Source: Tetrahymena thermophila SB210
Taxonomy: Eukaryota; Ciliophora; Oligohymenophorea; Hymenostomatida; Tetrahymenidae
Assembly (NCBI RefSeq): GCF_000189635.1
Contig: NW_002476512.1
Coordinates: 186,001 to 250,000 of the forward strand
Length of the DNA stretch: 64,000 nt
Direction: 5' to 3'
Part shown: positions 32,877-64,000 of the stretch, one piece after another
Layout of the letters: each line of letters begins with the position of its first letter
How positions within the stretch are numbered: the stretch's first letter is position 1
Notes under the pieces: model-generated
The model's database searches: none
Seen by the model: the letters and a program-made list of their open reading frames with translations, nothing else
Told to the model about the DNA's origin: nothing
Made by a program: the position numbers and the translations under genes

Positions 32877-35196
32877 ATGAAGAAAATTTTAGTTGTTGGA
32901 GACCTTTAAGGAAATTTTGAAGGTTTGGCTCAAAAAATTTAGAATTTTAGTAAAAAAGGGCAGGAATTCAATTTTGCTGTATGCGTTGGATAAACTCTCT
33001 CTTTAGAGATTTCATTGTAGGATTACAAAAAATCTGGAGTAGAAATGCCTATCCCTGTATATTTCATAGACTGCAGTGAGATGTGCTAATGCTTAAATCA
33101 TTTATACCCTACTGGTACAGAAATTGCAAAAAATATATTTTTCCTAGGCAGGTCAGGAATATAGGAAATATAAGGATTGAAAGTAGCCTTTTTAAATGGG
33201 CTATAATCAAATAAATATTCTGAGTTCTACACAGAATTGCATTCATAAAAGTCTTCATTCACAGGTATTAGAATAGTTTATTCTTATTTATTTTGATATT
33301 TGCTTTAAAAAAGAACAAAATATAAAAAAATGAATTAGAATTTAGAATAAAATAATTGCTATGATAGCCATTTTCAAAAAAAAAATATTTCAAATATGAA
33401 AATCTTAATTCGTTCATTTTAGAAATTAAAATAAACTTAATTTAAAGCTGATATTTCACTTATTCAATATTAAACTTTATATAAAAAAATATATTTATTA
33501 ATATTTAGGTCCTTATTATAGTTTGCAAGATATCAAGCTTTTAGAAGAGGAAGTAAAGCTTTCCAATCAATTTATGGGAGTTGATATATTTTTGTCAAAT
33601 GAATGGCCTGAAGGCTTTGAAAAATATACTACTTTTAATGAGGTAGTTAAGAGAAAATCTATTCATATTACTAAAATTGCATAAAAGCTTAGTCCTCGTT
33701 ACCACTTCTGTGCTTTGGAAGACAAATATTATGCAAGATTTCCATATTAAAATGAACAAGGTCATTTAAGTAGATTGGTTTGCTTAGGAAAATGGAAATC
33801 ATAGCAAAAGCATATTTCAGCATTTCAAATAACACCAATCAGCAAAACTCCTCTTGAAGAGCTTAAACAAATCACAGACGATTGTACTTAAAACCCATAT
33901 ACTCATTTAACTAAGCCCCCAGTATAATAAAAAGTAAAAGATACTTCACTCTCAATATAGTAATAAATTGAAAACGAATTAATGAAAGAGGAAGAAGAAA
34001 GGCTTGATAAGCTAGAAAAAAGCTAAGGAGAAACTGAGGACTTAATAAAACCATACTAGCCTAATGGTAAGTAAGAAAAGCATTCTATTAACTTAGAATA
34101 AAATTAAACTATCCATTTTAGTGGATTTGATTACAGAACTAATGATGATGATATCATTGAGTTCCTTTCTAGATGGGGTACAATTTCTAAAATAAATTTA
34201 GTTTATGATGATCACTCAAAAAAACATAAAGGTTATGGTTTTGTTGAGTATAAAGATCTTTAAGTTACATAAAAAGCTCTAAATGATTCAGAAAAATATT
34301 CTCTGCACTCCAGAAAGATTAAATTTAATCTTGCAAATAACAATAAATCAAGTCAGGTAAAACTTACTAAATTAAATTCAAAAACAAATTAAAAATTAAA
34401 TTAAATTGAAAGAATGATTAAATATTAAATTTTCAAGAGATAGATTATTTAAAAAATAAACTAAAAACAATTTTATAGTTTAAAAAAATAAATTAAAAAG
34501 AATTTTTAAATTTTAAATTATTTTTAAAATATAAAGTCAAAGTAAAATGATAAATGTTGGTTTTGCTATTCTAACCCTAATATTGATAAGAGTCTTATTT
34601 TTTATGAGGGGAAACATTGTTATTTAGCATTAGATAAAGGCCCATTGAGTAAAAATCACTTTATGATTGTACCTTATGATCATCTTTCTAGCACTTTAGA
34701 ATTCTCTTAAGAATTACTTGATGAAATTTCAAAAATAAAAAAGAATTTGCTATATATCTTTGAAAACGGATACAATTAAGGGCTTGTTATTTATTAAAGA
34801 TATGTAAAACTTTCTCCAAACGTCTCACATATATTGATTAATTGTGTACCATTAGATTAGAACTAAGTAACACAATTTTAAAGTAATTTTGAATCTATAG
34901 TCAAACATTAGAAAATTGATTTCTTCAAATTAGAGGCAAATGAGCAAATTTCTAGCTGCGTAGGAGAAAAAGAATATTATTTTAATATTGATATTTATCT
35001 TTCTTAAGATACTTTCAAAAGATATTTATATGTGTTTAAAGAAAATGAAAGATTTCCTTTAGATTTTGGAAGATAAATCATTTGTGAAATACTAAAAATG
35101 CCTCACAGGCTTAACTGGAAAACTTGTTAATTAACTAATGACGAGTAAAATGAATGTATTTCCGAAATGAAATTCAATTGCCAAAAGTTTAAATGA
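32877..35196 (+). CDS. CWF19L1: CWF19-like protein 1 with an internal RRM
   Basis: Exons are 32877-33264, 33509-34356 and 34537-35196; 632 codons, all joins in frame. Residues 1-200 form the metallophosphoesterase-like N-domain (MKKILVVGDLQGNFEGLA, FAVCVG, NIFFLGRSGIQE). Next comes a conserved stretch ending RYHFCALEDKYYARFPY. An Arg/Lys/Glu-rich linker leads to an RRM near residues 330-415, with IHFSGFD as RNP2-like and KGYGFVEY as RNP1-like. The third exon holds the CwfJ domains: CWFC, ALDKGPLSKNHFMIVPYDHL (HIT-like) and the C-terminal RFPLDFGRQIICEIL segment. Family members (yeast Drn1, human CWF19L1) bind the lariat debranching enzyme and act in intron turnover in the nucleus. The RRM is not part of the usual human or yeast layout. 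Exon 3 was later copied twice downstream as part of a tandem duplication. Confidence 0.92.
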
Positions 35197-36342
35197 TTGA
35201 TTTAAATTTATAAAACTAAAAATTTTTATTTAATTTATTTTAAAATCAACTGTGAATAAATTAGTTTTATCCTTAATAAATAAAACTTAAATTAATTAAT
35301 TTTTACTTATGTGCTTATTTATTTTTAAATAACAATCCTAAATAAATTTATTAATTGTATGCCAAATAGTATCAGTATTAAAAATCCTATGTGATATTAT
35401 AAAAATTTAGATTTTTTTCTATCAATTAATCTATTTTTGAAATTTTTAGCAGAGCTATGCTATGAGGTTGTAAATTATTTTTATTTTTGTAAAATTCTAA
35501 AATTTTCATTAAGATTATTAAATTTAAAAATTGTAAAAAAGAAATTTATTTTAAGCTTTTCAAAAGATTTTTATATTTAGCTATCAAAAATAATCAATTA
35601 AATATACTAGATTAAATAATTCTATTTATTTGTAAACTAATATTTTATTTTTAAACATATATTTTAACAAAATTAAAATTTATTTAAAGTATTACAAATG
35701 CTAAATGAGTAAAATCAAATTAATTATCAACAAGTAATCTTTATTTTAACTAATACATTTATATTGATTTAAATAAAATTAGTATAAAATATTTTATTTT
35801 TAGGTGCTTAGGTTCATTCATTCTAAATTGAATTTTACATTTTAAATAATTCAAATTATTTAAGTCTAAAATTTCCAGTTTTTGTTTTTTTCAAAAGCTT
35901 TTAGTTAGACAATAAATTAAGCCTTTGACTAGACAAACTTTAATCTGTTTTAAAACTAAATTAAATGCGATGTGTTTAACTTAGACTATTAAGGGTTGGT
36001 GCTTTTTCAACTTATTGTTTTTTTGTTTTATTCATAGATTAAAGTAATTCTCTTAGTCTCTTCCAGCTTTTTATAATAAGAATTTAAAATTTGCAAATAA
36101 AAAAATATCTTTACTTTTTAAAGACCTACAGAGATTGATGACTTGGCTTAAACATTAAAATATATAAGGAGTAATTTTTTTTTTTAAGGTATTCTTTTAC
36201 TTTGTACTCATTTTTTGTAGATAGACATTTTTTGAATTTAATAAATATATAATTAAAAATTTTCGATTTTATTATTCTAATCATGCTTCTTTATAGTAAA
36301 ACATTCAAAAAACTTGCTATTAAAGAACCTTTTTATTTTAAT
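35197..36342. repeat. Conserved spacer between CWF19L1 and giant gene 1
   Basis: No protein frame is supported. The spacer recurs at 49285-50170 and 61040-61951 as part of the duplicated unit. Its right half (about 35860-36250) is notably similar in all three, including the block at 36121-36173 around GAGATTGATGACTTGGCTTA. Confidence 0.7.
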
Positions 36343-39300
36343 TCAAATTAATTTATTTTTTATGAAAAAAATTTTTTTTTACCAAAGAGCATAATAAATA
36401 AAGTAACTAAGAGAACAGAAAACGCATATTTAAAGTTAGATTCTTCTGTCAAACTATCAAATACAGCAATCCAAAAAATCAGTATCATTAAAGTTACAGA
36501 CTTTACCTCCAGCTTATTAATTCTGTTGTTTTCATATGGTTTAAAATATATTAATAGTGCTAAATATACCGATTATAGAAACAAAATAGATAATGTTTAT
36601 ATAAGATTTTGAGAATTAAAGAATGTTGCAAGAAAGATAATTATGAATTTTTGATATATTCTAATAAACTCCCACCACCACCTGTTTTATTTTATGCCTG
36701 AAATAATATATCCGTATCTTCTAATTACTACACTTCTGAGTTGGATAAACATATATTATTTATTGTGGTAGATTAAATAAAAAAGTATAAGAGGATAGAT
36801 TATTACAGTTATCAAGAGTATAGGGCATATAAGAAAGAATAAATACTAGTTGTGTTCTTTGGTATAGCAAATTTAATCCATTTGGCTTTTCATGTAATAT
36901 TTATTATCGAGCTCTTAGCAAAATATTATTTGTAGAGCTTCCTAGTATATATTTTATAAGACTAGATACATAAATACAATCAAAGAGCTTATTGCCATAT
37001 TTCTAGTATTGTACATATGGTTATTAAAGTATTGATTGTTATTGAATAAACTTAGAATAAATATTATTCCTTTTACGAATAATATTAAAGAAAGAAGCAT
37101 GATTATAGGTAATACCATAGATAAGTAAATAAATCTTAAATATTAGATTGGAATTTAAGTATTTATGCTACTTAAACTGCAATCTAAAGAATATATAAAT
37201 ATGTATATTGGCTGAGATGAGAAATTAGGGAAAGAAATTAAATTCGAAAATAGAGTTGGAAAGGTAATTCCAATATTTTGTTGTAATGAAGCAAATACCT
37301 AAAATTAATTTATAAATATTTTTACTATTGTTGAAGATTATAGAGTAAAAGATGAAACTCCCAAATTGATAATCCTGAGCTGCTTAAGAGTATGTATTTA
37401 ACATATCCTGCAGTTACTATTTTAAGAGTCAACCATTAAAATTACTACATAAATTAAAACACCAATGAAGGTTAGTACTTATTTAAAGTAATTAGCTTAA
37501 ATTTCAGAACATTCCATACATACCACACCTCTTACATTAACCGATAAAACGGCTCCATAGCGATTTCCCCACACTTATCCATAATTATCACAAGCTGAAC
37601 ATAATCCTCCAGTATAACCCTTAGCACAGTAATTATTTTATTCATCTCCATTGCAAGACAAAATATTTTTATTACATTCATAAATATTATCACTAATATT
37701 GCTGCTTCTCCTAAATATTATTTTAATTTTAAATAAAATTAATAAATGAACATGATTAATCAAGCTCACTCAAAATGTTAATAAAATAGAATATATAAAT
37801 CATTTATCAACAACCTATCAAATACCCTCATAATATTGTCTAAAAATAAATATTATTGGATTAATGTTTTATTCATTTTAAGTCAAATATCAATAATTAA
37901 AATAAAAGAAGTTGAAATGTACTAAAATAATTTTTATAAAAAATAAATACCAATAATTTTATTTGAGCACTATTTAATCCAATTAACATGATTCAACAAC
38001 TGATAAATCACAAGGTTAACATTACTTTTAACTATTAATTTTTGGTATAACTAAAGAATATGTTCCACTTTAACATTAAGCACATTCTTAAATTAAACAA
38101 CCATTGCATGTAGGGTTGTAATACTCTCCTTTGATACAGCTTCTAAAATATATCTCTATTTAAATCTAATTAACATCGTAAAAAGTAGAATTTGCTGCTA
38201 TTTATTTCATTCCTTAAAGTGATAAATAAACTATTGCTCTTTAGGACGGAACTCCTGCAATTTTAAAATTACTCATTAAACATCCAGATAAATTTTAATG
38301 TTAGAATTTATAATCAATAGAAGTAGCTCCTTCAATTTTAATGATTTATTTCTAAAGCGATTCTATAGTTTGTATTAAATAAACTTGGCAATTATATTGA
38401 CTTAACTCTTAAAGCAAATTTCCACTTAGTTAAGCTGTTTATGCTAATATGTTAAATATGGTAAAAATATAATTTAATATTTTAAGTAGTTACTTGAATT
38501 CTTAAAATCAACTTAATTCACAGGGTTCTTAAATTCATCTAAAAATTAAATGCTTAGATCAAAGCTACTTAAACCACTTCTAAAATTACTAAAAGTTATA
38601 TTAGGATAGAGCGAGATATTTACATCAAAGTCTCTGCTAGGAAAAATAGAAGCATATTAAGGATAACTTGCTATTGAATCACCAAATATTATTGCTTTAT
38701 TCTATTTACATGAATTAGATGAATATGTTTTGCATGAATCTTTAGCTATTATGTTGTTTTATTAATTTTTAACCATAAATGAAGGTTTTATGATTAAATA
38801 TCTTATAGCACCTCCAACACCAGCTCTATTCTTTATAAAATTTGAATTTTATAATGGAAAGTTAGAGTTATCAATTAGAATAGCACCACCACTCCTATTT
38901 TTTTTAAAATATGAATTGGAATTGTAAATTAAATACATTTAATTACCCATATGCATTGTTGAACTAAAAACTTGAATTATTAATTATTGATTTGATATAT
39001 CCTGATTTTGTGATATAAAAACAGCCTCCATCCGAATAAGCAGTACTATTTTGGAATATTGAGTCTTTTATGGTTATAGTTGGTATTTTTGACATATATA
39101 AAAAACCTCCATTATTAGTACATTTTGATGCTTAAGATTGAACTTGTGTTAAATTAAGAGAACCACTATCAGCATAAATGCATCCTCCGTTTTAAGATGA
39201 GCAAGAAGAAAAAACTGTTGATAATATTGACAGATTTGATCGTGAAGAATAAATTGATCCTCCATTAGAAGTGCATGAGTCATTTTCAAAACTAGAATTC

Positions 39301-42300
39301 TGAATAATTTGAGTGCTTTAAGTAATATAAAGTGATCCTCCATTTAATTAAGATAAGTTGTTTGAGAAATATGTGTTTTTAATAGAAAAAGTTGATTGTT
39401 AAACAAATATTATTGATTATTACCAAATAGCTTTATTGTTTAAAATTTTAGAATCAAATAATTGCGCACTAGAAGAAATAATATAAAGTCCATAATAGAT
39501 TTCATTTTAAGTTAATTGTAAATTAAACAATTAACATAAATTAAATTGATTAATTTAAATCAAAGAATTAAAGCCAATATTTATTCTAAAAAAAATATTC
39601 TAAAAAGAAAGTTAATCTCCTTGTTAAATATACAGTAAATTTATTGATTTGGTAATGTCAGTATTGTTCTCAAATATAGTATCATTTATAGTTAAATTAT
39701 GACACTAGATTTTAATTGTAGGTTCTATGACTTTATTTGTATAATTATTAAAAATTATTTTTATATTTTTAAGTAAAACATTATCTTTTATTAATTAATA
39801 GTTAACATAGTAGTCTTATTGCACCTGTGATTAACTATTACTGTGGTCCATAAAGCTGATATCTTAATTTTTATAATATTCTATTGTATTTAATATTAAA
39901 TTTTTAATTAAGAAAAGTCTAAAAATTAGAGTAGGAGTACCCGAGCAAGTAGAGATAAGTATAGAAGACATTTAGACATTTTAAAAGTTTTACAATTAAA
40001 AAATTGTGTTAATATTCATTGACGAAATAAAGTAAAATTTTGAGTTATCTATGATCATATTTGTAAGTTAAAGTTAATATATACCTTAACTTAAGCTGTT
40101 ATAAAAGTTGAATAGTTAAATTTAACTAAAAGTACAATTTTAAATAGTCATTAAGTTTATCTAAATTTAATTGACATCCTAAATGCTAAATAGGTTCAAT
40201 AATTAACTACTTTGCATATTCAGTTTAATCATTTAAATATGATTGAAATACACTTCATTGATTTAAGAAATTTCAAAAGAATAAATAGCTAAGTCTCCTA
40301 AATTGATACTATAGAAACCTAAGTATCCAACGTTTTAAATATTGAATATAGAATTGGAGCTATATTATTATTAGGGTTGAATAGTTAAATTACTCATGAT
40401 AATTTTACTGTACCCTCTGAATGAATCAAAAAAATCAGAATTTACATAAACCTAAATTTAATTTGTTAAATTAGATTGAGATTAATATGTTATTGATGAC
40501 TAACTAGAAAAAGCAAAATTAGGAAGTCTTTAAAGTACAATATCAGATTCTATTTAAATTAAAAATTCCATTTCAATTATTGGAAAGTATTTTTAAACTT
40601 AATAGTAAACACTGTCAATAGATTTAAAAGTTGAAGCAATTTCATCTATATATAGAGTTTCTTAGCAAATCTATTATCCCTAAATTGGTAGATGCAATTA
40701 TCCTATTTAAAAAGAAGAGTAAAGAATTAACTTTATATAAATATTATCAAGAGAATTAAATATCTCATAATTTGAAACAAATCCTAAATCTTCATTATCC
40801 AATGATAATTACCCCTTTATTTTAATTGTTTAAGATATTTAGTCGATTAGATATACGAAAATAGTATTTTAGTATACATCTATAAAATAATCTTTGTTTA
40901 CTAAAATGATTTAATTTTGATCAATAGTGTAAACATCTGTTAAATTTAAATTTTAAAAGAACCTTCCCATTCCTAGTTATTTAAAATTAGAAAGCAAATT
41001 AACTTGATAAATGCAAACACAACTTTATAAAATGTAATCCAACTCAAAATTCAAATCAAGTTTATAAACATAGCCAAGACATGGACTTGATATTTATTGG
41101 ACTAGAGTAAAATCTTCTAAATTGTACAATCCAATATAAAAATCACTTATTCGTTTTATGAAAACCTAAAATTAAAAAAAATGAAATTTTATTAAATTTA
41201 TTAAATAATTTTTTTACTTTTGATTCAAATATTTTAATTATGTGTGCATGCGATTTATAACCAGGTAATTTTATAATTTACTATTCCAAAATAGCAAAAC
41301 TGAAATTAAATTTAATACAGGCTATGTTTCCATCAAAAGATGCCATTAATATGATATAAATATTTTCTAATAAAGTAAATGAATAGTTAATGATAGCTTA
41401 CTTAAGAAGATTTATATTAAACTGTTAATCAAACTAGACAGGGTTTTTGTCATTTAGCTAGAAAGAAATGATTTCTCCTAAAGTAGTTGTAACAAAGAAA
41501 GAATTTAATTCATTAATTGATTCAAGTTAAATAATACTAGAATTTTAGTTAATTGAAATCTATTATATTTATCTGAAATCGTTTAAGCCAATTATTGTAA
41601 TAATGTTTAATTATGAACAAATAAAATAAGATATAAGCTAAGTATTTCTCATGCACTTAACACTTTAAATGTTGACTAAGTTTAAACTATTTAGATCAAA
41701 AAATATTGTTTGTTCTCTGGTTAATAATACTCCTATATTCTTTTAACCTTTCAGTAAAATCATCTTACTTTAAACTTCATATTCAGGATCATCGCTATTT
41801 ACGAAAAATCCATAACTTAATTATTAACTTGTATAATTCCATTACTAAACTATATTTAGTTCTTAGTGAAAAATAATACTTTAATTCACTTATAATGTGG
41901 ATAATAGACCTATATTTATTATAAAAAATCAATTTTTGTATGCGATATTTAATAATTACCTTCGCTTTAATAAGAGTTTGTATACATATTAGGAACTAAA
42001 AACTCAATCATATTAAGATATTTAATTGTTCCAGATGATTGACTGCCTATCAATATTAAGTTATATTTTACATCTAAAAAGATTTTAGAAATCTATCCTT
42101 ATGCTACTTATATTGTTCTCAATAATAATAAGTTTGGGTACCTAAGGATATAAACAAATCCATTAAAATCGCCAACAACAACAAGATTATTATCTTTATC
42201 TAATATTCCACAAAACAAAGGATTTTAAAGTTATAACTGACTCCTTTTTATTAAATTTTTATTTTAATAATATTTATTCTAAAAAAATTATTATTTATAT

Positions 42301-45300
42301 TGATGCGCTTTAGTATTTTTATGTTTAATAAAAGAGTATATACAATGGGGAAATTATAAGGCCATTAGGTTCAAAATGAAGCCTTACATTAACAAATTTC
42401 TTGAAATTAAAATCTGTAGTGGCCCATTTTTATTGGCCTTATACTTCCCCTATTGCATGTTCTATAATAGAAATTTCAAATATAAATTATTTATTTAATT
42501 AATTTATTTTTTATTTTGTAAATAAGAGATTTAATAAAAAATATTTTATAATATCAAATTACATAAATTGAATTCCGTTAGAATAGCTCCATGTTTTTAC
42601 AAATAGATCTTTACTTTATATTTATAAATACTTTAAATAAAATAATTATTATATTATTTTACCTTATAGATGTTAGTATATAGGATTAAGAATCAATAAG
42701 AACTTCATATATCCATTGTTTATGAGCTTAAACTTCTGATATTTTTTTACAATTCAAATCACTTAATCGAATATATCCAATATGCTTATTTAATATTTTT
42801 TTATTTTAATATATTTTAATATTTTAAATAATTACATCCCATTAAATTTAGTATTAATTAAAGTGGTCGAAATTCCCAAATATGCCCTCTATTGTACATA
42901 TTATTTAAAGGTTTTTATAATCAATCAAAACTGACCACCATGAATACTAAATATATTTAGTAAAGACTCAAAAATTTAATAAATAATAAAAGTAAATAAA
43001 TTACTCCTAAAATCATGATTTAATTTTATTCTGGATAGAAAGCCATATCTGATACTAAAGATACTGAGACTATTTAGTCTAAAATCTTTATCAATTAGAA
43101 TTAATTTGAAGCATCCCATACAATGACTGTTCCAGGTCCACTGCAAGCAGCAAACAATCTATTTGAATAATCATCATAATATAACTCTGCTACAGAATTA
43201 CATTTCTCTAAATCGTGTTTCATAGTATTAATATAATTATAATTACTTAATTTATAAGCTACAATATTATTTGAAACTGAAGTAAGATAACCAATAAGAA
43301 TGGTATCTTATGAAGTTATACCTCTAATAATATAAGCATTAGATAAATTTATATTATTAGGAAAGGGTGGAAGATATTAATTGCTAATATGATTATAAAT
43401 AAAGACTTCTTAGTTAGTAAGTATAAAAGTAAATCCGCTTTGTAAGTGAATATGGAAATCTAATACATTATTTTAAGGAGTTATCTACGCAATCTATCCA
43501 AAATTGATTAGCCTTTTTGTGTAAACCTACAAAATAAGTAAATAAATAATAAAAATTATTTAATTAATAAAATAAAAATTAACAAAAATTACTTCTGAAC
43601 CAGATTTATAGGTTATTGTATTATAATTACTTATAAAATAGTCCATATTATTTGGTTATATATTATTAAATAGAGAAACAATCGAGAGAATATTATAATT
43701 ATACAAAAGAATGTCACCATTGTCAAAGCTAATAATGACTATTTACATATTTGTGTCTATTTATATTTATTCTATAAGCTGAGGTTGTATCTGTAAGGAA
43801 TTCAGCAAAATTGTAGTTTTTAAGTCAAAAACATTTAACTTAAAACTGCTTGTTATAATTATTAGTATTGCCTTTTATTCATCAAATACCAAATTTTTAA
43901 CAATATCTTGCTTAAAATCAATAGCTTATTCTTATAAAGTAATATGATTTTTAGTTAATACTTAACTCCCCTTATTAATAAGAAAGATATTTAACTACTC
44001 TATAAGATAGATTTATTAAATTTTTCCTGAATAATAACTTATTGTTTATATGAGATCTAAGGAATTGACGTTATACTTATATTACTTTAAAAAAATAAAA
44101 AATATTAACAAAAATATTTTATTTAACTAATTTTTTACCATAATTTATTGTTCTTAAATGTTAAATAAAATTTATGTTTAAAAATTAAAAAAGAAACTGT
44201 TAAAATTTAAATTTTTTCCATCAAAAGGAATGTACGTATTGTAATCCCCATCACTGTAGAAGTAATTAAATAAATACAAGAAATCATTTATGTAAATAAA
44301 TATCTGCTTCTAGCTTTCCAATAATAAAGCAATTCCTTATGTTTGAGCATTAGGGAGAAAAGTTCCTTTAAATACAAGGGAATGATCATGACTAGAGTTA
44401 AAATTATATATCATATATTAAGTAGTTTAAATAATTCCTATTAGATATCCATTAGTTTTATCTTAGTGTAAATAGTAATATTGTAAATTGCTTTCAGAGA
44501 AAGCATTTTCTATACTATCTATTAATATTCCTTATCTGTAATCAAATACAAATAAAATTTTACTTCCTTTTGTAGTTTATAAATTTTGCTAAACAAGCTA
44601 TTTCAAATAATATGAAATGTTTTAATAAAATTATTATCAAAATAATTAATGATTGATACCTTATTTAACTATTTATCTATGATAAAAGTTGAGTTAGCTC
44701 CAGAAACAAAAATTTATTTCTCCATAATATTATCAAAATATGACCAATACTGTATTTTACCTCCTCTGTCTATTTTAATGATTCTAATTTTAATATTAAT
44801 AAAGTATTAATTATATTGATTTAGTTTACCTGTTAAAATCTGGATCAACTTCAATTTTATTAGGAACATCATAAGCTGAAAGCTATCTATTAAAATAATC
44901 TATAGCATAAACAAATTTGGATGATTTTATATCAATTATCGAAACAGACATTTCAGAGCATAATATGATACTACTCTGGGAAATGTAAGCCTACAGCCAA
45001 TTAAAACCAATATTTTAATTTTTGAACATAATTGGTTTTTATTCCTTTAAAGAGTAAGCAAATATATAATTATTTGATACACTAACAATTTAATCTAAGC
45101 TGTTAATCGAAGCATAAACAAAATTAATTTAGTTACTAATACTGGTTTGATTTGCATCTCTTTAATCACAATAAATATTTTGGAAATTAGGTTCATATAC
45201 TTTTTAAAATCTTTACAAATCCCATACTTAAAATAAATTAGATGTACCTACTACTGTAATGTACTGTTCAAGGGAGTTTACTAAAACGTTTGTTGTTTAG

Positions 45301-46160
45301 GCAGGTAAGATTTAGGAAAAAATCATCTAAGACTACCTAAATGAAACCAAAAAGTAATTTAATGAAGATTATTAGTATGATATAGTAACGAGGTTTTTTG
45401 ACAGAAAAGAGGATTATATTGAGTAAAATTTATTTAAGGTAAATAAAATGTTAAATGAATTCGAAGCTATATCATATTAATAGATATCACCATTAGATTA
45501 AAAAATTACCATTCTTCTATTTGCTTTATCATTTTGACAATTTAGAATTCCATTATTATTTGGAAGCTAGTGTGTACTTATAATTGTTGTGCTTTAGGTT
45601 GAGCTAGAAAAACCAATTACAAAGACCTATTTTTATAATGGAATTAATTTTCCCAAATTATTTAAATAAATAGCAAATAATTAATAAATTAATACATTTT
45701 TATTATTCCATGTCAACACAAGTTTTTCTTCAGAATTTAAACAAGAATAAGGATTAATGTTTAATAATTAATCAGGGATCTATAGTATTTTTTATTTGGT
45801 TCCAATATCTAGATTCCAACTGATTATTCTGCCACTAGAATCAAGAGTGTGCAGTTCTGATCTTTAAATTTATTTTCTGTCATCCTTGTCAATGCGATAA
45901 AACATAATATTTTCTTAAGGCTCCTACAGGATTAATTTTTTTTTTGATATCAAATTATAAATACCAATACTAAAAGGATTATATACGAGAATCGCTATAT
46001 CATCATTTGCGATCTAAGGATCAGATTTCATAATTATCATTTTCTGAATAGAGTAATATTAATTAGAGCACCCTACTTACCAAAAGGGACAGCCTATAGC
46101 AGCAACCCCATTTATTTTTAAATATATCAATAAAAAATGAATTAAAATAAGTAAGTTCAT
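36343..46160 (-). CDS. Giant surface membrane protein, propeller/beta-helix type, copy 1
   Basis: The start is ATG 46160 with a clear signal peptide (MNLLILIHFLLIYLK), and TGA is at 36343. Many exons are separated by 50-330 nt introns. The N-half, down to about 42650, has repeated propeller-like strands with WD-style motifs (SGRIISWNLDIG, LVLTWNNKNVLIYQL, TVIVWDASNQFQL). From about 40900 to 38500, Asn/Ser/Ile-rich repeats with GGAI, GGCI and SGGAIL turns suggest a right-handed parallel beta-helix. Then come Cys-rich modules (CNGCLIQECAQCQSGTY; CAKGYTGGLCSACDNYG near 37600) and, below about 37500, several membrane helices ending in FWIAVFDSLTEE and LLVTLFIMLFGKKK. It is predicted to be secreted to the surface with a short cytosolic tail. 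The architecture resembles other very large ciliate membrane proteins; the ligand and role are unknown. Two paralogues lie downstream. Confidence 0.78.
42341..42457. mobile_element. Short inverted-repeat (MITE-like) element in an intron, copy 1
   Basis: The left end TACAATGGGGAAATTATAAG (42341 on) is matched by an inverted copy ending at 42457 (TGCAATAGGGGAAGTATAAG when reversed). The element lies within the intron between the giant gene's exons near 42650 and 42235, so it is spliced out. The inner 80 bp are non-coding. No target-site duplication could be fixed. It is more GC-rich than the intron around it. Confidence 0.55.
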
Positions 46161-46189
46161 TAAGTTATTAGCTTTTTACTTAATTATTA

Positions 46190-46490
46190 TTTTTATATTC
46201 CTATTTGAATTTCAATATAAAATTGATTAAATTTATAATAATTATACTGATTTTACTTTTTCAACTCAATTTATTTAAAAGCCTTATATAAATAACTAGA
46301 GCCGTTTATTATCAATGTTAAATATAAATGAAAATTTAGTTTAATTTATCCTTCTTTTAATATTCTTATTTGAATTTCAATATAAAATTGTTTAGATGTA
46401 TAATAATACTGATTTACTCTTTCAACTCGAATTATTAAAAAACTTTATTATTTAAACAAGCATAGTTGTTTATTATCAATATTAATCCTA
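46190..46490. repeat. Direct repeat upstream of giant gene 1
   Basis: Two copies of a roughly 125 bp sequence start near 46194 and 46362. Both contain TATTTGAATTTCAATATAAA near the start and a TTTATTATCAAT motif near the end. A degraded relative lies upstream of giant gene 2 at about 60240-60370. The position just upstream of the start codon suggests promoter DNA. Confidence 0.65.
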
Positions 46491-47383: not shown

Positions 47384-47470
47384 GGCAGCTTGGTTATTTT
47401 TTTTTTTTGATTGATAAAAAATAAAAAGGGGAGCTTGTCTTTTTTTTTTTGATTAAAAGTAAAAATAAAG
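47384..47470. repeat. Short direct repeat with long T-runs
   Basis: Two neighbouring copies of AGCTTG, two to five bases, a T-run of 11-12, GATT and then A-rich sequence, starting at about 47386 and 47431. No coding or RNA role is visible. Confidence 0.5.
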
Positions 47471-53100: not shown

Positions 53101-56100
53101 TTAAAAAAAACTGTAGAAAATATTGACAGATTTGATTGTGTAGAATAAATTGATCCTCCATTCTCAGAGCAAGAGTCTTATTCAAATTTGGAATTCTAAA
53201 TAATTTGTGTACTTTAAGAAATATAAATTGATCCTCCATTTTATTAAGCTAAGTTGTTTGAGAAATATGTGTTTTTAATAGAAAAAGTTGATTTTTATTA
53301 AACAGTTATTATTGAGTATTATCCACTAGAATTATTGTTTTAAATTTTAGAATCTATTAATTTCACACTTGAAGACATAATTATAAGTCCTTACTAGATT
53401 TAATTTTAAGTTAATTGTAAATTAAATAATTAACATAAATTAGATTGGTAAATTTAAATCAAAGCATTAAAACCAATATTCCTTATGTAAAAAATATTCT
53501 ATGATGAGATTTATATTCCTTGTTAAATATATAGTAAAATTATTGTTTTTAATTTCGTATTATCTACATTGTTCTCAAATATTATATCATTTATAGTTAA
53601 ATAATTACACTATATTTTAATCGTAGGTTCAAGGATTATATTTGTATATATATTAGATATTACCTTTATATTTTTAAGTAAAATATTATCTTTTATTAAT
53701 TAATAGTTAACATAGTAGTTTTATTGCACCTGCTATTAACTATTGCTGTGATCCATAAAGCTGATATCTTAATTTTTATTATATTCTATTGTATTTAATA
53801 TTAAGTTCTCAATTAAGAAAAGTCTAAAAATTAGAGTAGGAGAACCCTAGCAGTTAGTGATAAGTATAGAAGACATCTATACACTATAAAAGTTTTACAA
53901 GTAAAAAATTGTATTAATATTAATTGACGAAGAAAAGTAAAATTTTGAATTATCAATGATCAAATTTGTAAGTTAAAGCTAATATATACCTTAACCTAAG
54001 CTGCTATAAAAGTTGAATAGTTAAATTTAATTAAAAGTACAATTTTAAATAGTTGTTAAGTTTATCTAAATTTAATTGACATCATAAAAGCTAAATAGAT
54101 TCAATAATTAACTACTTTGCATATTTAAACTCATCATTTAAATCTGATTGAAATACACTTAATTGATTTAAGAAATTTCAAAAGAATAAACAGCTGAGTC
54201 TCCTAAATTGATATTATAGAAACCTAAGTATCCAATGTTTTAAATATTGAATATAGAATTGGACCTATCGTATTATTAGGGTAGAAGAGTTAAATTACTC
54301 ATGATAATTTTTCTGTAGCCGCTAAATGATTCAAAAAAATCAGAATTTACATAAGCCTATATTTATTTTGTTAAATTAGATTGAGCTTAATATGTTATCA
54401 ATGATTAACTAGAGAAAGCAAAATTAGGAAGTCTTTAGAGTACTATATCTGATTCAATTTAAATTAAGAAATCCATTTCACTTATTGGAAAGTATTTTAA
54501 AATTTTGTAGTAAACACTCTCAATAGAATTAAAAGTTGAAGCAATTTCATCTATATAGAGAGTTTCTTAGCACATCTATTATCCGTATATTGGTAGCTGC
54601 AATTAACCTATTTGAAAAGAAGAGTAAAGAATTAGTTTTATATATACATTATCAAGAGTATTAAATATCTCATAATTTGAAACAAACCCTAAATCTTCAA
54701 TATCCAATGAAAATTATCCCTTGATTTTAATTGTTTAAGAGATTTAATCTATCTGGTAAATGAAAATAGAATTTTAGTATACATCTACAAAATACTCTTT
54801 GTTTATTAAAATGATTTAATTTTTATCAGTAGTGTAAACATCTGCTAAATTTAAATTTTAAAAGAACCTTCCCATTCCTAATTATTTAAAATTAGAAAGC
54901 AAGTTAATTTAATAAATGCACACACAACTTTATATTATATAATCCAACTCCAAATTCAAATCAAGTTTATAAACATAGCCAAGACATGGACTTGATATTT
55001 ATTCGACTAGAGTAAAATCTTCTAAATTGTACAATCCAATATAAAAGTCGCTTATTCGTTTTATGAAAACCTAAAATTAAGAAAAATGAAATTTTATTAA
55101 ATTTATTAAATAATTTTTTTACTTTTGATTAAAATATTTTAATTATGTGTGCATGTGATTTATGACCAAGTAACGTTATAATTTACTATTCCAAAATTGT
55201 AAAGCTAGAATTAAATTTAATACATGCTATGTTTCCATCAAATGATGCCATTAATATGATATAAATATTTTCCAATTAAGTAAATGAGTAATTAATGATT
55301 GCTTGCTGAAGAAGATTTATATTAAATTATTAATCAAACTAGACATGGTTTTTGTCATTTAGCTAGAAAGAAATGATTTCTCCTAAAGTAGTTGTAACAA
55401 AGAAAGAATTTAATTCATTAATTGATTCAAGTTAAATAATACTAGAATTTTAATCAATTTAAATCTATTATATTTATTTGAAATCTAATAAGTCAATTAC
55501 TGTAATAACGTTTAATTATGAACAAATAAAATAAGATGTAAGCTAAGTATTTCTCATGCATTTAACACTTTAAACATTGACTAAGTTTAAACTATTTAAA
55601 TCAAAAAATATTGTTTGATCTCTGGTTAATAATACACCTATATTTTTTTAACCTTGCAATAAAATCATCATACTTTAAACTTCATAGGATGGATCTTAGC
55701 TATTTACAAAAAATCCATAACTTAATTATTAACTTGTATAATTCCATTACTAAACTATATTTAGTTCTTGATGAAAAATAACACTTTAATTCACTTATAA
55801 TGTCGATAATATACCTTTTATTTATCACAAAAAATCAATTTTTTTCAGTGGTATTTAATATTTACCTTCAGTTTAAAAGGAGTTAGTATACACATTAGGA
55901 ACTAAGAGCTCAATTATATTCAAATATTTAATTGTACCAGATGATTGACTGCCTAACAATATTAAATTGTATTTTACATCTAAGAATATTTTAGATATCT
56001 ATCCTTATGCTACTTATATTTTTCTCAATAATTATAAGTTTGGGTACCTAAGGATATAAACAAATCCATTAAAATCGCCAATAAAAACTAGACTATTATC

Positions 56101-59100
56101 TTTATCTAACATCCCACAAAACAAAGGATTTTAAAATTCTAACTGACTCCTTTTTATTAAATTTTATTCTTCAATAATTTATGTACTTTAATATTTTTAT
56201 GTTTAACAGAAGAAAAATACAATAGAGAAATTTTAAGGGCAATAGGTTCAAAATGAAGACTTACATGCCAATTTTTCTACATTCAAATCAATCTTTAATG
56301 TAGAGGGCTAAATTTCACAAAATTTTGAATAATATTTTAATAATATTTGGATAAAATAAATATTGGTAGAGGTTGATTTTTATTGACCTTAAAATACCCC
56401 CATAATTTTCTCTAATAGAAATTTGAAATTTAAATTATTTTATTAATTTATCTTTTATTTTGCAAATAAAATATTTAATAAAAAACATTTTAAAATAACC
56501 AAATTACATAAATTGAATTCCATCAGTATAGTTCCATGTTTTTACAAATAAATCTTTACTTTATATTTATAAATACTTTATATAAAATAATAATTATTTT
56601 ATTTTACCTTATAGATGTTAGTATAAATGATTAAGAATCTATAAGAACTTCAAATATCCATTATTTATGAGCTTAAACTTCTGATATTTATTTACAATTC
56701 AAATCGTTTAATCGAATATATCCAATATGCTTATTTAATATTTTTTTATACTTTTGGTATATATTAAAATTATAAATAAATAATTACGTCCCATTGAATT
56801 TAGTATTAATTAAAATAGTCGAAATTCCCAAATATGCCCTCTATTGTACATATTTTTGAAAGGTTTTTATAATCAATCAAAGCTGACCACCATGAATACT
56901 AAATGTAAATAATAAAGTATTCAAAAAATTTAATTGATAATAAAAGTAAATGAATTACTCCGAAAATCATGATTTAATTTTATTCTGGATAGAAAGCGAT
57001 ATCTGATACTAAAAACACTGAGACTATTTAGTACAAAATCTCTATCAATTAGAATTAATTTGAAGCATCCCATACTATGACTGTTCCAGGTCCAGTGCAA
57101 GCAGAAAATAATCTATTTGAATAATCATCATAATATAACTCTGCTACAGAATTACATTTCTCTAAATCGTGTTTCATAGTATTAATATAATTATAATTAC
57201 TTAATTTATAAGCTACAATATTATTTGAAACTGAAGTAAGATAACCAATAAGAATGGTATCTTATGAAGGTATACCTCTAATAATATAAGCATTAGATAA
57301 ATTTATATTATTAGGAAAGGGTGGAAGATATTAATTGCTAATATGATTATAAATAAAGACTTCTTAGTTAGTTAGTATAAAAGTTAATCCGCTTTGCAAG
57401 TGAATATGGAAATCTAATACATTATTTTAAGGAGTTATTTAGGCAATCTATCCAAAATTGATTAGCCTTTTTGTGTAAACCTATAAAATAAGTAAATAAA
57501 TAATAGAAATTATTTAATTAATAGAATAAAAATTAACAAAAATTACTTCTGAACCAGATTTATATGTCATTGTATTATAATTATGTATAAAATAATCCAT
57601 ATTGTTTGGTTACATATTATTAAATAAAGACACAATCGAGAAAATATTATAGTTATACAAAAGAATGTCTCCATTATCATAGCTAATAATTATTATTTAC
57701 TAATGTGTATCTATTTATATTTATTCTATAAGCTGAGGTTGTATTTATAAGGAATTCAGCAACATTGTAGTTTTTAAGTCAAAAACATTTAACTTAAAAC
57801 TGCTTGTTAAAATTATTAGTATTGCCTTTTATTCATCAAATACCAAATTTTTAACAATATCTTGCTTAAAATCAATTGCTTATTCTTATAAAGTAATATG
57901 ATTCTTAGTTAATACTTAACTCCCCTTATTAATTAGAAAGATATTTAACTGCTCTATATGATAGATTTATTAACTTTAGCCTGAATTATAACTTATTGTT
58001 TATATAAGATCTAAGGAATTGACATTATACTAATATTACTTTAAAAAAAATAAAAAATATTAACAAATATATTTTATTTAATTAATTTTTTACCAGAATT
58101 TGTTGTTCTTAAATGTTAAATAGAATTTATGTTTAGAAATTAAAAAAAAAATTGTTAAAATTTATATTTTCTCCATTAAAAGGAATACATTTATTGTAAT
58201 CTCCATCACTGTAGAAGTAATTAAATAAATATAGGACACCATTTATGTAAATGAATAACTACTTCTAGCTTTCCAATAATAAAGCAATTCCTTATGTTTG
58301 AGAATTTGGGAGAAAGGTTCCTTTAAAAACAAGAGAATGATTATAACTAGAGTTGAAGTTATATATCATATATTATGAAGTTTAAATAATTCCTATTAGA
58401 TATCCATTAGTTTTATCTTAATATAAATAGTAATACTGTAAATTGCTTTCAGGGAAAGCATTTTTTATACTATCTATTAATATTCCTTATCTGTAATCAA
58501 ATACAAATAAAATGCTACTTCCTGTTGTAGTATATAAATTTTGCTGAACAAGCTGTTTCAAATAATATAAAATATTTTAATGAAATTATTATCAAAAGAA
58601 TTAATGATTATTTATACCTTATTTAACTATTTATCTATTATAAAAGTTGAGTTAGTCCCGGAAACAAAAATTTATTTCTCCATAATATTATCAAAATATG
58701 ACCAATACTGTATTTTACCTCCTCTGTCTATTTTAATAATTCTAATTTTGATATAATTAAAATATTCATTGGATTAATTTAGTTTACCTGTTAAAATCTG
58801 GATCAACTTCAATTTTATTAGGAACATCATAAGCTGATAGCTATCTAGTAAAAGAATCTATGGTATAAACAAATTTGGATGATTTTATATCAATTATGGA
58901 AATAGATAATTCTGAGCATAATATGATACTATTCTGGGAAATGTAAGCCTATATCCAATTAAAACCAATATTTTAATTTTTGAACATAATTGGTTTTTAT
59001 TCCTTTAAAGAATAAGCAAATATATAATTATTTGATAAACCTACAACTTCATCTAAGCTGTTAATTGAAGCATAAACAAAATTAATTGAGCTACTAACAC

Positions 59101-60108
59101 TGGTTTGATTTGCATCTCTTTAATCACAATAAATATTTTGGAAATTAGGTTCATAAATTTTTTAAATTTTTTACAAATCCCATACTTAAAATAAATTAGA
59201 TACTCCTACAACAGTAATGTACTGTTCAAAAGAGTTTACTAAAATATTTGTTGTTTTGGTAGGTAAGATTTAAGAAAAAATCATCTCAGACTATCTAAAT
59301 GAAACCAAAAGGTATTATTAAGAAGATTTTTAATATGATATAGTAATGAGGTTTTTTGAAAGAAAAGAGGATTGTAATGCATCAAATTCATTTAAAGTAA
59401 ATAAAATATTAAATGAATTGGAAGCTATATCATATTAATAGATATCACCATTAGATTAAAAAATTACCATCCTTCTATTTGCTTTATCATTTTAACAATT
59501 TAAAATTCCATAATTATTTGGAAATTAATATGTATTTATGATTGTTGTGCTAGAAAAATCTATCACAAAGACCTATTTTTAAAGGAATTAATTTCCCCAA
59601 ATTTACAAAATAAATAAATAAATAGCAAATAATTAATTAATACATCGTTATTTTTCCATGTCAACACAAGCTTATCTTAAGAATTTAAACAAGAATAAGG
59701 ACTAATATTTAATAATTAATTAGGAATCTATATTATTTGTTATTTTGCTCCATTATCTAAATTCCAGCTAATTATCCTGTTACTAGAATCAAGAGTGTGC
59801 AGTTCTGATATTTAAATTTATTTTCTGTCATCCTTGTCAATGCGATAAAACATAATATTTTCTTAAGGCTCCTACAGAATTAATTTTTTGTTTGATATCA
59901 GATTATAAATCCCAATGCTAAAAGGATTATAAACAAGAATTGCAATATCATCATTTTCGATCTAAGGATTAGATTTCATAATTATCATACTCTAAATAGA
60001 TTAATATGAATGTGAGCACCCTACTTACCAAAAGGGACAGCCTATAGCAGAAACCCCATTTATTTTTAAATATATCAACAAAAAATAAATTAAAAAAAGT
60101 AAGTTCAT
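50171..60108 (-). CDS. Giant surface membrane protein, copy 2 (one apparent frame break)
   Basis: Same layout as copy 1: signal peptide MNLLFLIYFLLIYLK at 60108, propeller-like N-half, beta-helix repeats (about 52300-54700), Cys-rich modules (CNGDE...NNYCAKGYTGGLCSACDNYG near 51450) and C-terminal membrane helices ending near 50171. Most differences from copy 1 are synonymous or conservative. Near 59570-59640, however, a net change of two bases relative to copy 1 shifts the frame after LVLTWKNNDVLI. The homologous frame resumes at VFVIDFSS, before which a TGA is met. Another indel nearby (12 bases) is in frame. The copy may therefore be a recent pseudogene, or the sequence may contain an error there. 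The C-terminal tail after FIMLFGKK differs from copy 1. Confidence 0.7.
56219..56417. mobile_element. Inverted-repeat (MITE-like) element in an intron, copy 2
   Basis: Lies at the position homologous to 42341-42457 in copy 1. It has the shared left end TACAATAGAGAAATTTTAAG and inner motif AGGTTCAAAATGAAG, and an inverted right end at 56383-56417. It is about 80 bp longer than the copy 1 element. Its presence in both genes means the element predates the duplication. Confidence 0.5.
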
Positions 60109-60551
60109 TAAGTTATTTGTGTTCTACCTTATTGTTATTTTTTTTAAATTTTGTATTTAATTAAAAATTTGATTTATCAAGCACTTTTTTTCATATAAAT
60201 TTTTGAGTTTATAATTTAAAAGATAGTTGTAAAACCATAGTTGTAATTGAATTTCAAAATATAATTCATTAAATGTATAAAATTTATACTGATTTTATAT
60301 TTTTAGAATCTACTTTATTAAAAAAAAATTTTAAATAAGCAAGTAAAGTTATTTATTATTAATGTAAATTTTAAAATAAAGTGATACTATAATTTCCAAT
60401 TTTATTAAGTAAATATTTTAAAATCCATAAAAAAATAATATATTGTATAAATAAAATCTCATAAAATATTTTTTTTTAAATTTTCAAGAAATTATTTAAA
60501 AACAATTAGGGTGTGTTGAAAATAATTTAAAAATATTTTTAAAATATAAAG
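60109..60551. other. Upstream region of giant gene 2 and unit 2/3 junction
   Basis: The left part resembles 46190-46560 upstream of copy 1. The right part turns into CWF19L1 intron-2-like sequence at about 60480. Confidence 0.6.
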
Positions 60552-61039
60552 TCAAAGTAAAATGATAGATTCTGGTTTAGGTATTCTACCCTAATATATA
60601 AACGAGTCTTAAATTTTAAGGCTAAACATTATTATTTAGCATTAGATAAAAACCCATTTTAAGTAAAATCACTAACATTATGATCATATTTCTGCACTTT
60701 AGAATCTTCTTCAGAATTGCTTAATGAAATTTCAAAAATAAAAAAGAATTTGCTATATATAAAATTTTTTCTAAACATCTTGCTTATATTAATTAATTGT
60801 TTACCATTACATTAGAACTAAGTTACACAATTTTAAATTAATTTTGAGCCTAATTCCAAGCACTATAAAATTTATTTCTTCAAATAAGGCAAATGAGCAA
60901 ATTTCTAGCTGTATGAGAAAAAAATAATATTTTAATATTGATATTTATTTATCTTTCTCAAGATCTTTTTAAAATACTAAAAAACCCTTATTAATTTACT
61001 AAAGACGAATTAAGACTCAATAGTCAAAATTTTAAATGA
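60552..61039 (+). pseudogene. Relic of CWF19L1 exon 3, second duplicate
   Basis: Corresponds to 34537-35196 but is 170 bp shorter and more decayed than the relic at 48684. Matches to the start (TCAAAGTAAAATGATAGATT), the EISKIKKNLLYI region and the extreme 3' end remain, while internal segments are deleted. It has no start codon and a broken frame. Confidence 0.8.
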
Positions 61040-61951
61040 TTTTATCTAAATTCATAAAACTAAAAAATTATTATTTAATCTACTTTAAAATTAATTGCCA
61101 ATAAGTAAATAAGTTTTAACTTAAATATGAAATTATAAATTAGTTAATTAATAATTATTTAAATACTTTGCTAAGATTATTAACTTTATAAAATGGTAAA
61201 ATAAGAAATTTATTTTAAGCTTTTATAAAGATTTTTAATTAGCTATCAAAAATAATCAATTAAATTTAGAAAAATGAAAAAAAACATATTTTATTTCTAA
61301 ACTTAAAAGTTTACATCAATAAAAAAAAACTAAATTTATTTAAAAGATTATATGAGTAAAATATATAAAAACAATGAGCAATCAATAATCTTTATTTAGC
61401 TTATCCATTTATAGAGTATAATAAAAATAAAATATTTGATTTTCAGATGCTTAGGTTTCATACATTCTAAATTGAATGTTTCCTTTTTTATTATTAAAAT
61501 AAACTAAGTCTAAAACCTGTAGTTTTTGGTTTTTTAAAAATCTTTTAGTTCGACAATAAATTAAACTTTTGGCCAAGCAAACTTTAATCTGTTTTAAAAC
61601 TAAATGAACTACGAAGCACTTGAATCGAATTATTTGGGCTTAGTACTTCTTTTTCAAGTTATTATTTTTTTGTGCTACTCATAGATTAAAGTAATTATCT
61701 TACCCTTTTCCAGCTTTTTATAATAAAAATTTAAAAGAAGTAAATTAAAAAATATCTTTACTTTTTAAAGACCTGCAAAGATTGATGATTTGGCTTAAAC
61801 ATTAAAATATATAAAGAGTAACTCTATTTTTTAAGGTATTCTTTTAGTTTGTTCTCATTTTTTATAGATAGGCATTTTTTGAATTTAGTAAAAATATAAT
61901 TTAAAATATTAGATTTTGCCATTTTAAACATGCTTCTTAAAAGTAAAGCAT
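61040..61951. repeat. Conserved spacer, unit 3 copy
   Basis: Third copy of the spacer, with its conserved block at 61768-61820. It remains close to the other two although the adjoining CWF19L1 relic has decayed. Confidence 0.7.
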
Positions 61952-64000
61952 TCAAAAAACTTGCAATTAAAGAACCTTTTTATTTTTAATACAAATTAAT
62001 TTAATATTTGTTTATAGAATAAATTATTTACCAAAGAGCATAATAAATAAAAAAACTAAGAGAAATGAAGAAATATATTTAATGCTAGATTCTTCAGTTT
62101 AATTATCAAATACAGCAATCCAAAAAATCAGTATCATTAAAGTTACTGACTTTAGCTCTAGTTTATTAATTTTGTTGTTTTCGTATGGCTTAAAGTATAT
62201 TAATAGTGCTAAATATACTGATTGTAGAAACAAAATAGATTATATTTATATTAGATTTTGTGAATTAAAGAATGTTGCTAGAAAGATAATTATGAATTTT
62301 TGATATATTCTTATAAACTCCCACCACCACCTATTTTACTTTAAGCCTGAAATAATATATCCATATCTTCTAATTATTATTATTCTGTGTTTGATAAATA
62401 AAGAGTTTTTATTGTGTAAGACTAAATAAAAAAGTATAAGAGGATAGATTATTACAATTAACAAGAGTATAGGGCATATAAGTAAGCCCATATATTTATT
62501 GTGTTCTTTGGTATAGCAAATTTAATCCATTTGGCTTTTCATGTAATATTTATTATCGAGCTACTAGCAAAATATTATTTGTAGAGCTGCCTAGTATATA
62601 TTTTATATGACAAGATACATAAATACAATCAATGAGCTTATTGTCATATTTCTAGTATTGTACATATGATTATTAAAGTATTAATTGTTATTGAATAGAC
62701 TAAGTATAAATATTATTCCTTTTATGAGAAACATTAATGCAAGAAGCATGAATAAAGGTAATGCCATAGATAAGTAAATAAATCTTAAATATTATATTGG
62801 AATTTAAGTATTTATGTTACTTAAACTGCAGTCTAAAGAATAAATAAATAAGTATACTGGCTGAGATGAGAAATTAGGGAAAGAAATTAAATTCGAAAAT
62901 AGGGTTGGAAATGTAATTCCAATATTTTGTTGTAATGAAGCAAATACCTAAAATTAATTTATAAATATTTTAGCTATTGTTGAAGTCTATAGGGTAAAAG
63001 AAGAAATTCCAAAATTGACAATGTTGAGCTGCTTTAAAGTGTGTATTTGACATAGCTTACAGTTACTATTTTAAGAATCAATCATTAAAAATACTACATA
63101 TATTAAAACACCAACAAAGGTTAGTGCTTATTTAAAGTAATTAGCTTAAATTTCAGAACATTCCATACATACCACTCCTTTGTCATATATCGATAAAACT
63201 GCTCCATAGCGATTTCCCCACACTTTTCCATAATTATCACAAGCTTAACATAATCCTCCAGTATAACCCTATGCACAGTAATTATTTTATTCATCTCCGT
63301 TGCAAGACTAAATATTTTTATCACATTGATAAATAATATCACTAAACTTGCTGTTTCTCCTAAATATTATTTATATTTTAAATAAACTAATATTGAACTA
63401 AATTAATCTAACTCAAAATGTTAAAAAATAGAATTTATAAGAAATGTATATTTAATTTATCAACAGCCTCTCAAATTCCTTCTCAATATTATCTAAAAAA
63501 CTTTTTGAATAGATGTTTTATTCGTCTTTAAATGCATTCATACCAAATATCAGTAATTAATATAAAAGAAGTTGAGAAGTATTAGAATTAATTTTATAAA
63601 AATCAATAAAAAAATAAATACCAATAGTTTTATTTGAGTACTATTTAATCCAATTAGCAAGTTACAGCAACTGATAAATCGCAAGGCTAACATTGCATTT
63701 AGCTATGAATTTTTGGGACAACTAAAGAATATGTTCCATTTTAGCATTAAGTACATTCTTAAATCAAACAACCATCACATGTAGGATTATAATATTCTCC
63801 TGTGATACAGCTTCTAAAATATATCTCTATTTATATTTGATTAACATCCTAAAAAGTATTATTTATTCCTATTTATTTCATTCCTTGCAGTTATAAATAA
63901 ACTTTTGCACTTTATGATGGAACTCCTGCAATTTTAAAATTATTCATTAAACACCCAGCTAAATTTTAACGTTAAAATGTATAATCTATAGAAGTAGCTC
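61952..64000 (-). CDS. Giant surface membrane protein, copy 3, C-terminal part
   Basis: Only the 3' end of the gene is in the window; the start lies beyond 64000. It contains the Cys-rich region (CKGEYYNPTCDGC-like segment near 63790; NNYCA then GYTGGLC near 63230), the roughly 230 nt intron also present in copies 1 and 2 (about 63370-63620), and the C-terminal membrane helices ending in IMLFGK near 62020, with TGA at 61952. The residues after VWGNRYGAVL (SIYDKGV) match copy 2 rather than copy 1 (SVNVRGV). No frame break was noticed in this part. Confidence 0.7.

Follow-up and report, generated by a model that had tools for sequence, protein, structure and literature searches.

Tandem duplication of a gene for a putative giant membrane protein, with the last exon of a neighbouring CWF19L1 homologue, in Tetrahymena thermophila

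The window analysed here, 64,000 nucleotides of contig NW_002476512.1 of Tetrahymena thermophila SB210, contains a tandem array of at least three copies of a block of about 12 kb. Very probably, the array is an ordinary tandem segmental duplication of the gene for a large receptor-like membrane protein, with a breakpoint in an intron of the neighbouring gene, a homologue of CWF19L1.

Results

Self-comparison of the window's DNA bore out the tandem array and the duplicated block described in an initial annotation. Of the three copies counted there, two were full and one was partial, and since the last is cut by the window end, three is a minimum.

~34.4-46.6 kb: first block, full copy
46560-48488, no strand: AT-rich spacer of about 2 kb after the first block, missing between the second and third
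~48.5-60.4 kb: second block, full copy
60432-60524, no strand: junction of the second and third blocks, where DNA upstream of the giant gene (the equivalent of 46551) joins CWF19L1 intron-2 DNA within about 90 bp
from ~60.5 kb to the window end: third block, partial copy, cut there

The giant gene in the block lies on the minus strand and is convergent with CWF19L1, a plus-strand gene. The first block matched the second at 88.8% identity over 6,780 columns (35556-42271) and at 91.1% over 3,788 columns (42426-46194), the second matched the third at 89.0% (49636-52225 with 61412-64000), and the first and third were 85.2% identical over 2,871 columns; this similarity exceeds chance by far. A search for a fourth copy, in which the ORFs of the window's first 34.4 kb were compared with the first giant protein, gave a best E of 0.22.

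33045-35196, plus strand: CWF19L1 homologue, modelled from 33045 rightwards, open; exons 33045-33264, 33509-34356 and 34537-35196
34357-34536, plus strand: CWF19L1 intron 2, containing the left breakpoint of the block
48489-49284, plus strand: CWF19L1 orphan of the second block, an intron-2 remnant and the last exon (~48687-49284), carrying TGA stops and gaps that shift the frame
60524-61040 (right end approximate), plus strand: orphan CWF19L1 last exon of the third block, more decayed, with gap runs of up to 58 columns

The neighbouring gene is identified as CWF19L1 by the presence of CwfJ_C_1 (1.4e-25) and CwfJ_C_2 (5.2e-9), which together with an RRM_1 domain N-terminal to them scored above the Pfam cut-offs, and by its top PDB match, CWF19-like protein 1 (8ro2, 2.1e-49). 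In known CWF19L1 proteins, the N-terminal part is metallophosphatase-like. Exons 1 and 2 came from a gene model; the last exon was placed manually by following the open frame, which extends it to 35196 from the 35144 of the automatic model, and the boundary bases were checked. The proposed start of the block in intron 2 agreed with the limits of homology, and the position given for it, 34,490, was close: the second block can be traced to ~34,360 and the third to ~34,450-34,509, in AT-rich sequence that leaves the exact base uncertain.

The last exon at 34537-35196 adjoins the upstream exons of the gene in the first block only, and a left breakpoint within CWF19L1 explains why the extra blocks carry orphan exons. 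Their decay, also claimed at the outset, was evident from frameshifting gaps: in a three-way alignment, 5 of the 6 gap runs in the second copy and 7 of the 11 in the third were not multiples of 3, counts that depend on the alignment and include one 1-bp run in the second copy that is also gapped in the first and is therefore an insertion in the third.

35814-46160, minus strand: giant gene of the first block, 16 exons, 2,999 aa plus stop; exons 1-8 at 45696-46160, 44830-45626, 44660-44783, 44139-44597, 43005-44075, 42836-42946, 42663-42784 and 42563-42613; exons 9-16 at 41960-42243, 41282-41909, 38947-41145, 38494-38894, 37951-38443, 36383-37710, 36115-36328 and 35814-36066
49681-60108, minus strand: giant gene of the second block, 2,998 aa plus stop, its 16 exons placed as in the first
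61458-64000, minus strand: giant gene of the third block, last four exons visible (61458-61713, 61762-61975, 62032-63359 and 63622 to the window end), with an open frame of 724 aa
38949-41144, minus strand: largest exon of the first giant gene; GG-x-aliphatic repeats mark its last third, which codes for a beta-helix-like segment (aa 1973-2131)
36384-37709, minus strand: Cys-rich and multi-pass membrane exon of the first giant gene, 442 aa

The giant genes were built with a joint two-copy gene model, the tail exons being placed by pattern and one boundary taken from a separate model; introns of 319, 240 and 136 bp in the first gene may hide small exons. With TAA and TAG read as glutamine, the first gene has 224 such in-frame codons and a single terminal TGA, and the frames are open in both full copies, which encode proteins of about 3,000 aa and 347 kDa, and throughout the visible part of the third.

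By its layout, the product would be a very large multi-pass membrane protein. Its parts include a signal-like N-terminus and a C-terminal tail and, between them, WD40-like propellers, a beta-helix-like segment, a Cys-rich region and six or more membrane segments. Its most likely role is that of a receptor or adhesion protein at the cell surface, a location read from the sequence. Several Pfam propeller models matched, with E down to 9e-8, every one below its cut-off. The beta-helix-like repeats comprise 7 motifs, against a mean of 0.32 and a maximum of 3 in 2,000 shuffles. A structure model of this exon had a mean pLDDT of 51, with residues 531-730 at 61-88 (blocks of ten), and gave 307 PDB matches at E up to 10, none of them at E up to 0.001; most of the 50 matches listed are beta-helix proteins. 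A profile search of the PDB with this exon, at E up to 5, found no relative.

The membrane exon is 88% (second copy) and 84% (third) identical to that of the first copy. It had no match above the Pfam cut-offs, its membrane domain found no relative in the PDB (E up to 1, then 10) or in viral contigs, where the scan gave nine pattern matches, and its structure model was unusable (pLDDT 34). We rejected a fungal-type TRP channel (PF06011), which scored 5.8 bits in the first copy and 7.2 in the third against a cut-off of 28.5.

The giant copies were said to keep nearly all their amino acids; the identities are only 85.6% (first and second), 80.6% (first and third) and 85.2% (second and third). 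As for selection on the protein, the initial annotation was right: dN/dS was 0.33 between the first two copies (2,995 codons) and 0.39 and 0.32 in the other pairs (723 codons each), well below 1 overall, and the giant protein is therefore still under selection. The C-terminal tail is less constrained, with a dN/dS of 0.88 between the first two copies (uncorrected Fisher P 0.0005) and of 0.75 and 0.55 in the pairs with the third, and so perhaps is the beta-helix-like segment (0.64 over aa 1901-2150 and 0.52 over aa 1901-2330); the propellers gave 0.26 and the membrane region 0.23-0.32.

Discussion

In the explanation that we favour, a block reaching from CWF19L1 intron 2 to a point shortly upstream of the giant gene underwent two or more duplications, presumably through unequal crossing-over. 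Each extra block carries the last exon without its upstream exons, and the exon decays; the second block contains a whole copy of the giant gene and the third a copy seen in part, and the visible copies stay under protein-level selection. Since divergence between the copies is greatest in the tail, sub-functionalisation of signalling output is possible. The 2-kb spacer and the unequal left breakpoints of the second and third blocks are not accounted for by the simplest single-unit model.

The array could instead be a diversifying set of surface antigens or ligand receptors, its copies retained for their variation, a view put forward in the initial annotation and one that the higher dN/dS of the beta-helix-like segment and tail would suggest. 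We consider this unlikely: dN/dS is low overall, the beta-helix contrast (P 0.013) is lost after correction for seven segments, the lone 100-codon sliding window above 1 between the first two copies (1.08) falls in the tail, which is likely intracellular, and relaxed constraint would yield the identical pattern.

According to extracts of a comparative study of Tetrahymena (PMC6564038), tandem duplicates are common among species-specific genes, and median Ka/Ks is 0.25 and 0.30 for genes found in one or two species. The in-paralog clusters described there resemble our array in their adjacent copies, purifying selection and raised Ka/Ks; however, the largest consists of LRR genes, whereas here a giant multi-pass protein and part of a neighbouring gene were duplicated. 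The Ser variable surface antigens of Tetrahymena, in the extracts available (PMC4136848), are Cys-rich ciliate surface proteins whose candidates often lie in tandem arrays, like the giant protein with its predicted surface location, but they are GPI-linked, whereas the giant protein is multi-pass with a tail. We rejected a Ser i-antigen identity, as a GPI-type hydrophobic C-terminus is absent: in a hydropathy scan, the final hydrophobic segment of the first copy was aa 2834-2852 of 2,999.

In layout only, the giant protein resembles proteins of the mating-type recognition complex and the CRMPs. As described in the available text (PMC10901506), MRC2 has a pectin-lyase fold and eight membrane helices and MRC1 a GFR domain and five helices, a likeness of description; these proteins are of 92-212 kDa against 347 kDa, and 'WD40' does not occur in that text. 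The CRMPs of ciliates and apicomplexans combine an EGFR-type domain with several C-terminal membrane helices, and 'pectin' does not occur in the text available for them (PMC9670195); the giant protein shows a stretch rich in Cys and six or more hydrophobic segments. We give little weight to the idea that these are giant contact sensors with a role akin to either group, in which propellers and membrane core would be kept while the beta-helix face and cytoplasmic tail vary for different ligands or signals.

Slightly less probable than a diversifying array is that the whole CWF19L1-giant pair was duplicated and the second CWF19L1 then lost its 5' part. The spacer sits where the lost exons would be expected, and over the 434 fully aligned columns of the passenger exon, 15 of 34 changes private to the second copy were synonymous (15:19), against 9 of 54 (9:45) in the third (Fisher P 0.007), as if the exon of the second copy had once been constrained; such a lean would be unexpected had that exon been dead from the outset. 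Nevertheless, the lean is weak against a transition-aware expectation (P 0.029), and duplication between two divergent alleles would also produce it. The spacer, moreover, holds no credible trace of exons 1 and 2: blastn with 11-base words found no match below E 0.28 (low-stringency searches gave many AT-driven matches with unreliable E-values), protein matches in the coding frame of exon 2 were no better than E 1.3, and one match at E 0.006 was out of that frame. Four spacer ORFs had no Pfam match up to E 0.01. We discarded a coding-potential score as a sign that the spacer is non-coding, since it was uninformative: the spacer had itself served as the training background, and the score was -0.003 for a real CWF19L1 exon against -0.18 to 0.03 for the spacer. 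An assembly artefact or merged haplotypes is highly improbable, since the copies, besides being 8-22% apart depending on site class, have indels of their own and differing junctions.

Changes shared by the second and third copies had been taken to mean that the second arose first and was then copied to give the third. The data did not support this order: in the passenger exon, only 11 of the 434 columns unite these two against the first, versus 34 private to the second and 54 to the third, and this is the rarest class in the pooled non-coding sites alike. Distances over 695 intron and intergenic columns are star-like, with the first and second copies closest if anything (0.186, against 0.203 for first and third and 0.217 for second and third). 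Runs of site patterns departed from expectation in the giant gene (P 0.017) and across the whole aligned stretch (P 0.002); gene conversion between copies was set aside, as the longest runs were ordinary (P 0.22 and 0.37) and the mix of classes shifts between passenger exon and gene.

The duplication event itself is ordinary for ciliates. The array is a clear case of tandem-array growth in which a dead neighbour exon provides an internal neutral yardstick beside a selected gene, and if the giant protein is a surface sensor, the array would reveal which parts of the receptor are free to change.

Structure of the array

The initial annotation proposed a three-copy tandem array of giant membrane-protein genes, and a self-comparison of the window bears this out, with the repeated block recurring as follows:

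35556-42271 (unit 1) and 49425-56178 (unit 2), in tandem, 88.8% identity
42426-46194 (unit 1) and 56376-60142 (unit 2), 91.1% identity
49636-52225 (unit 2) and 61412-64000 (unit 3), 89.0% identity; this third block ends at the window edge and is thus seen incomplete
46,560-48,488, spacer of about 2 kb after unit 1, with no counterpart between units 2 and 3

The spacer gave no credible match to exons 1-2 of the neighbouring CWF19L1 gene, and four of its ORFs had no Pfam matches. Immediately upstream of the unit 1 giant gene, the same self-comparison revealed a stretch of roughly 150 bp that is directly duplicated (46175-46485, 80% alike). Identity between units 1 and 2 drops in this region to 78% and then 64%, such that regulation may differ between the copies of the gene.

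Each unit carries its giant gene on the minus strand. In frame, the unit 1 copy contains 186 TAA codons, 38 TAG codons and, as its stop, one TGA, so both TAA and TAG need to be read as residues; reading them as Gln (NCBI table 6) fits the ciliate code. The gene model, which by design prefers long open frames, was built jointly on the aligned units 1 and 2, with tail exons added by pattern and one boundary borrowed from the single-copy model. It comprises 16 exons encoding 2,999 aa in unit 1 and 2,998 aa in unit 2, both open from start to stop, and the 724 aa visible in unit 3 are likewise open. Intron conservation is partly built in, since the joint model rewards splice sites common to both units, and unit 1 introns of 319, 240 and 136 bp may conceal small exons.

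Layout of the giant protein

Hydropathy of the unit 1 protein showed a signal-like stretch (aa 4-22) and six or more further segments within aa 2477-2852. WD40-type propeller models of Pfam matched the N-terminal half under the cut-off. Chlam_PMP was likewise under the cut-off at aa 1973-2131, where seven GG-x-aliphatic motifs are spaced by about 25 aa; 2,000 shuffles gave a mean of 0.32 and a maximum of 3, a figure that flatters the motif because it was picked after viewing the sequence. This beta-helix-like region was modelled as strands from a two-sequence alignment (pLDDT 61-88, in blocks of ten), and a Foldseek search with the model, run to a limit of E 10, gave 307 matches, of which not one had an E of 0.001 or below; the 50 listed are mostly what we take to be parallel beta-helix proteins. 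The membrane exon had nothing over the cut-off in Pfam and no relatives in the PDB, and its structure prediction was unusable.

Selection on the giant protein

The giant protein is under selection to be kept, as had been supposed. Nei-Gojobori estimates of dN/dS under the table 6 code, all well away from 1, were 0.33 between units 1 and 2 (2,995 codons, 85.6% aa identity), 0.39 between units 1 and 3 (723 codons, 80.6%) and 0.32 between units 2 and 3 (723 codons, 85.2%). Seven segments were compared, with boundaries that we drew after an initial split. Between units 1 and 2, dN/dS was 0.26 in the propellers, 0.23 in the membrane region, and 0.64 or 0.52 in the beta-helix (aa 1901-2150 or 1901-2330); the tail reached 0.88, with 0.75 for units 1 and 3 and 0.55 for units 2 and 3. 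Each against the rest, the tail and the beta-helix gave Fisher P values of 0.0005 and 0.013, and after correction for seven segments the tail alone stays significant. The one 100-codon window over 1 (1.08) also lies in the tail. Relaxation or diversification would account for the locally high values, and the data fit either.

Passenger exons and order of duplication

The giant gene is convergent with a neighbour identified as CWF19L1: CwfJ_C_1, CwfJ_C_2 and RRM_1 were all over the Pfam cut-off, and the top PDB match was CWF19-like protein 1 (2.1e-49). The limits of its last exon were set by hand using the open frame.

33509-35196, plus strand, CWF19L1 homologue with the RRM ahead of the CwfJ domains

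Its stretches best matched to the two solved CWF19L1 chains start downstream of the RRM. Units 2 and 3 both start with DNA of intron 2 and the last exon of this gene; a partial neighbour gene is an expected outcome of a duplication breakpoint. Homology to intron 2 starts at about 34,360 for unit 2 and about 34,450-34,509 for unit 3, so the left breakpoints appear to differ, with caution, as the DNA there is very AT-rich. In these passenger exons the reading frame shifts from piece to piece, and most gap runs are not multiples of three (5 of 6 in the unit 2 row, 7 of 11 in that of unit 3).

According to the initial annotation, unit 2 arose first and was then copied into unit 3. Had unit 3 derived from unit 2 after joint decay, the class of sites where these two agree against unit 1 would be enlarged; it is the smallest in the passenger and in the pooled non-coding sites, and this order is therefore unsupported. 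Of the 434 passenger columns in which every copy is present, 11 are shared by units 2 and 3 (7 synonymous), 34 changed in unit 2 only and 54 in unit 3 only; the counts are 53, 63 and 75 in 695 intron and intergenic columns, and level (27, 25 and 25) in the 329 intron columns alone. The 2,174 coding columns of the giant gene gave 118, 75 and 125; the first class is larger here, and in such an unrooted comparison it mixes changes of unit 1 itself with shared ones. Two of the 11 shared passenger sites, a Gly and the first Cys of CWFC, fall on residues also conserved in CWF19L1 chains, so units 2 and 3 may have undergone slight decay in common or have changed in parallel.

Changes confined to the unit 2 passenger (34540-35196 against 48687-49284) were synonymous in 15 cases and not in 19, and those confined to unit 3 in 9 and 45 (Fisher P 0.007). 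The synonymous lean of unit 2 has a P of 0.0005 against a random-change expectation of 18%, and of only 0.029 against a transition-aware one of 28%; it is thus no more than a hint that this exon was under constraint for a while or derives from a different functional allele.

Other features of the window

5195-6804, four clustered tRNA-Leu(TAA) genes, three on the plus and one on the minus strand, inside repeats about 0.1-0.6 kb long, both direct and inverted
18639-20015, ORF encoding the C-terminal portion of a protein kinase domain (Pkinase 3.8e-21), then a long Q/N-rich tail
27049-28017, ORF that weakly matches TmcB TPR (E 0.00034; 21 bits, the cut-off being 27) and that we take to be PAS-like in appearance

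Relation to known systems

The layout of the giant protein is similar to that of two proteins from the mating-type complex of Tetrahymena, MRC2 and MRC1 (PMC10901506), and to that of the CRMPs (PMC9670195), a likeness that we regard as resemblance and not membership. A further study reports frequent tandem duplicates in the species-specific gene sets of Tetrahymena, the median Ka/Ks being 0.25 for genes in one species and 0.30 for those in two (PMC6564038). The array is a good example of an already known kind of event.
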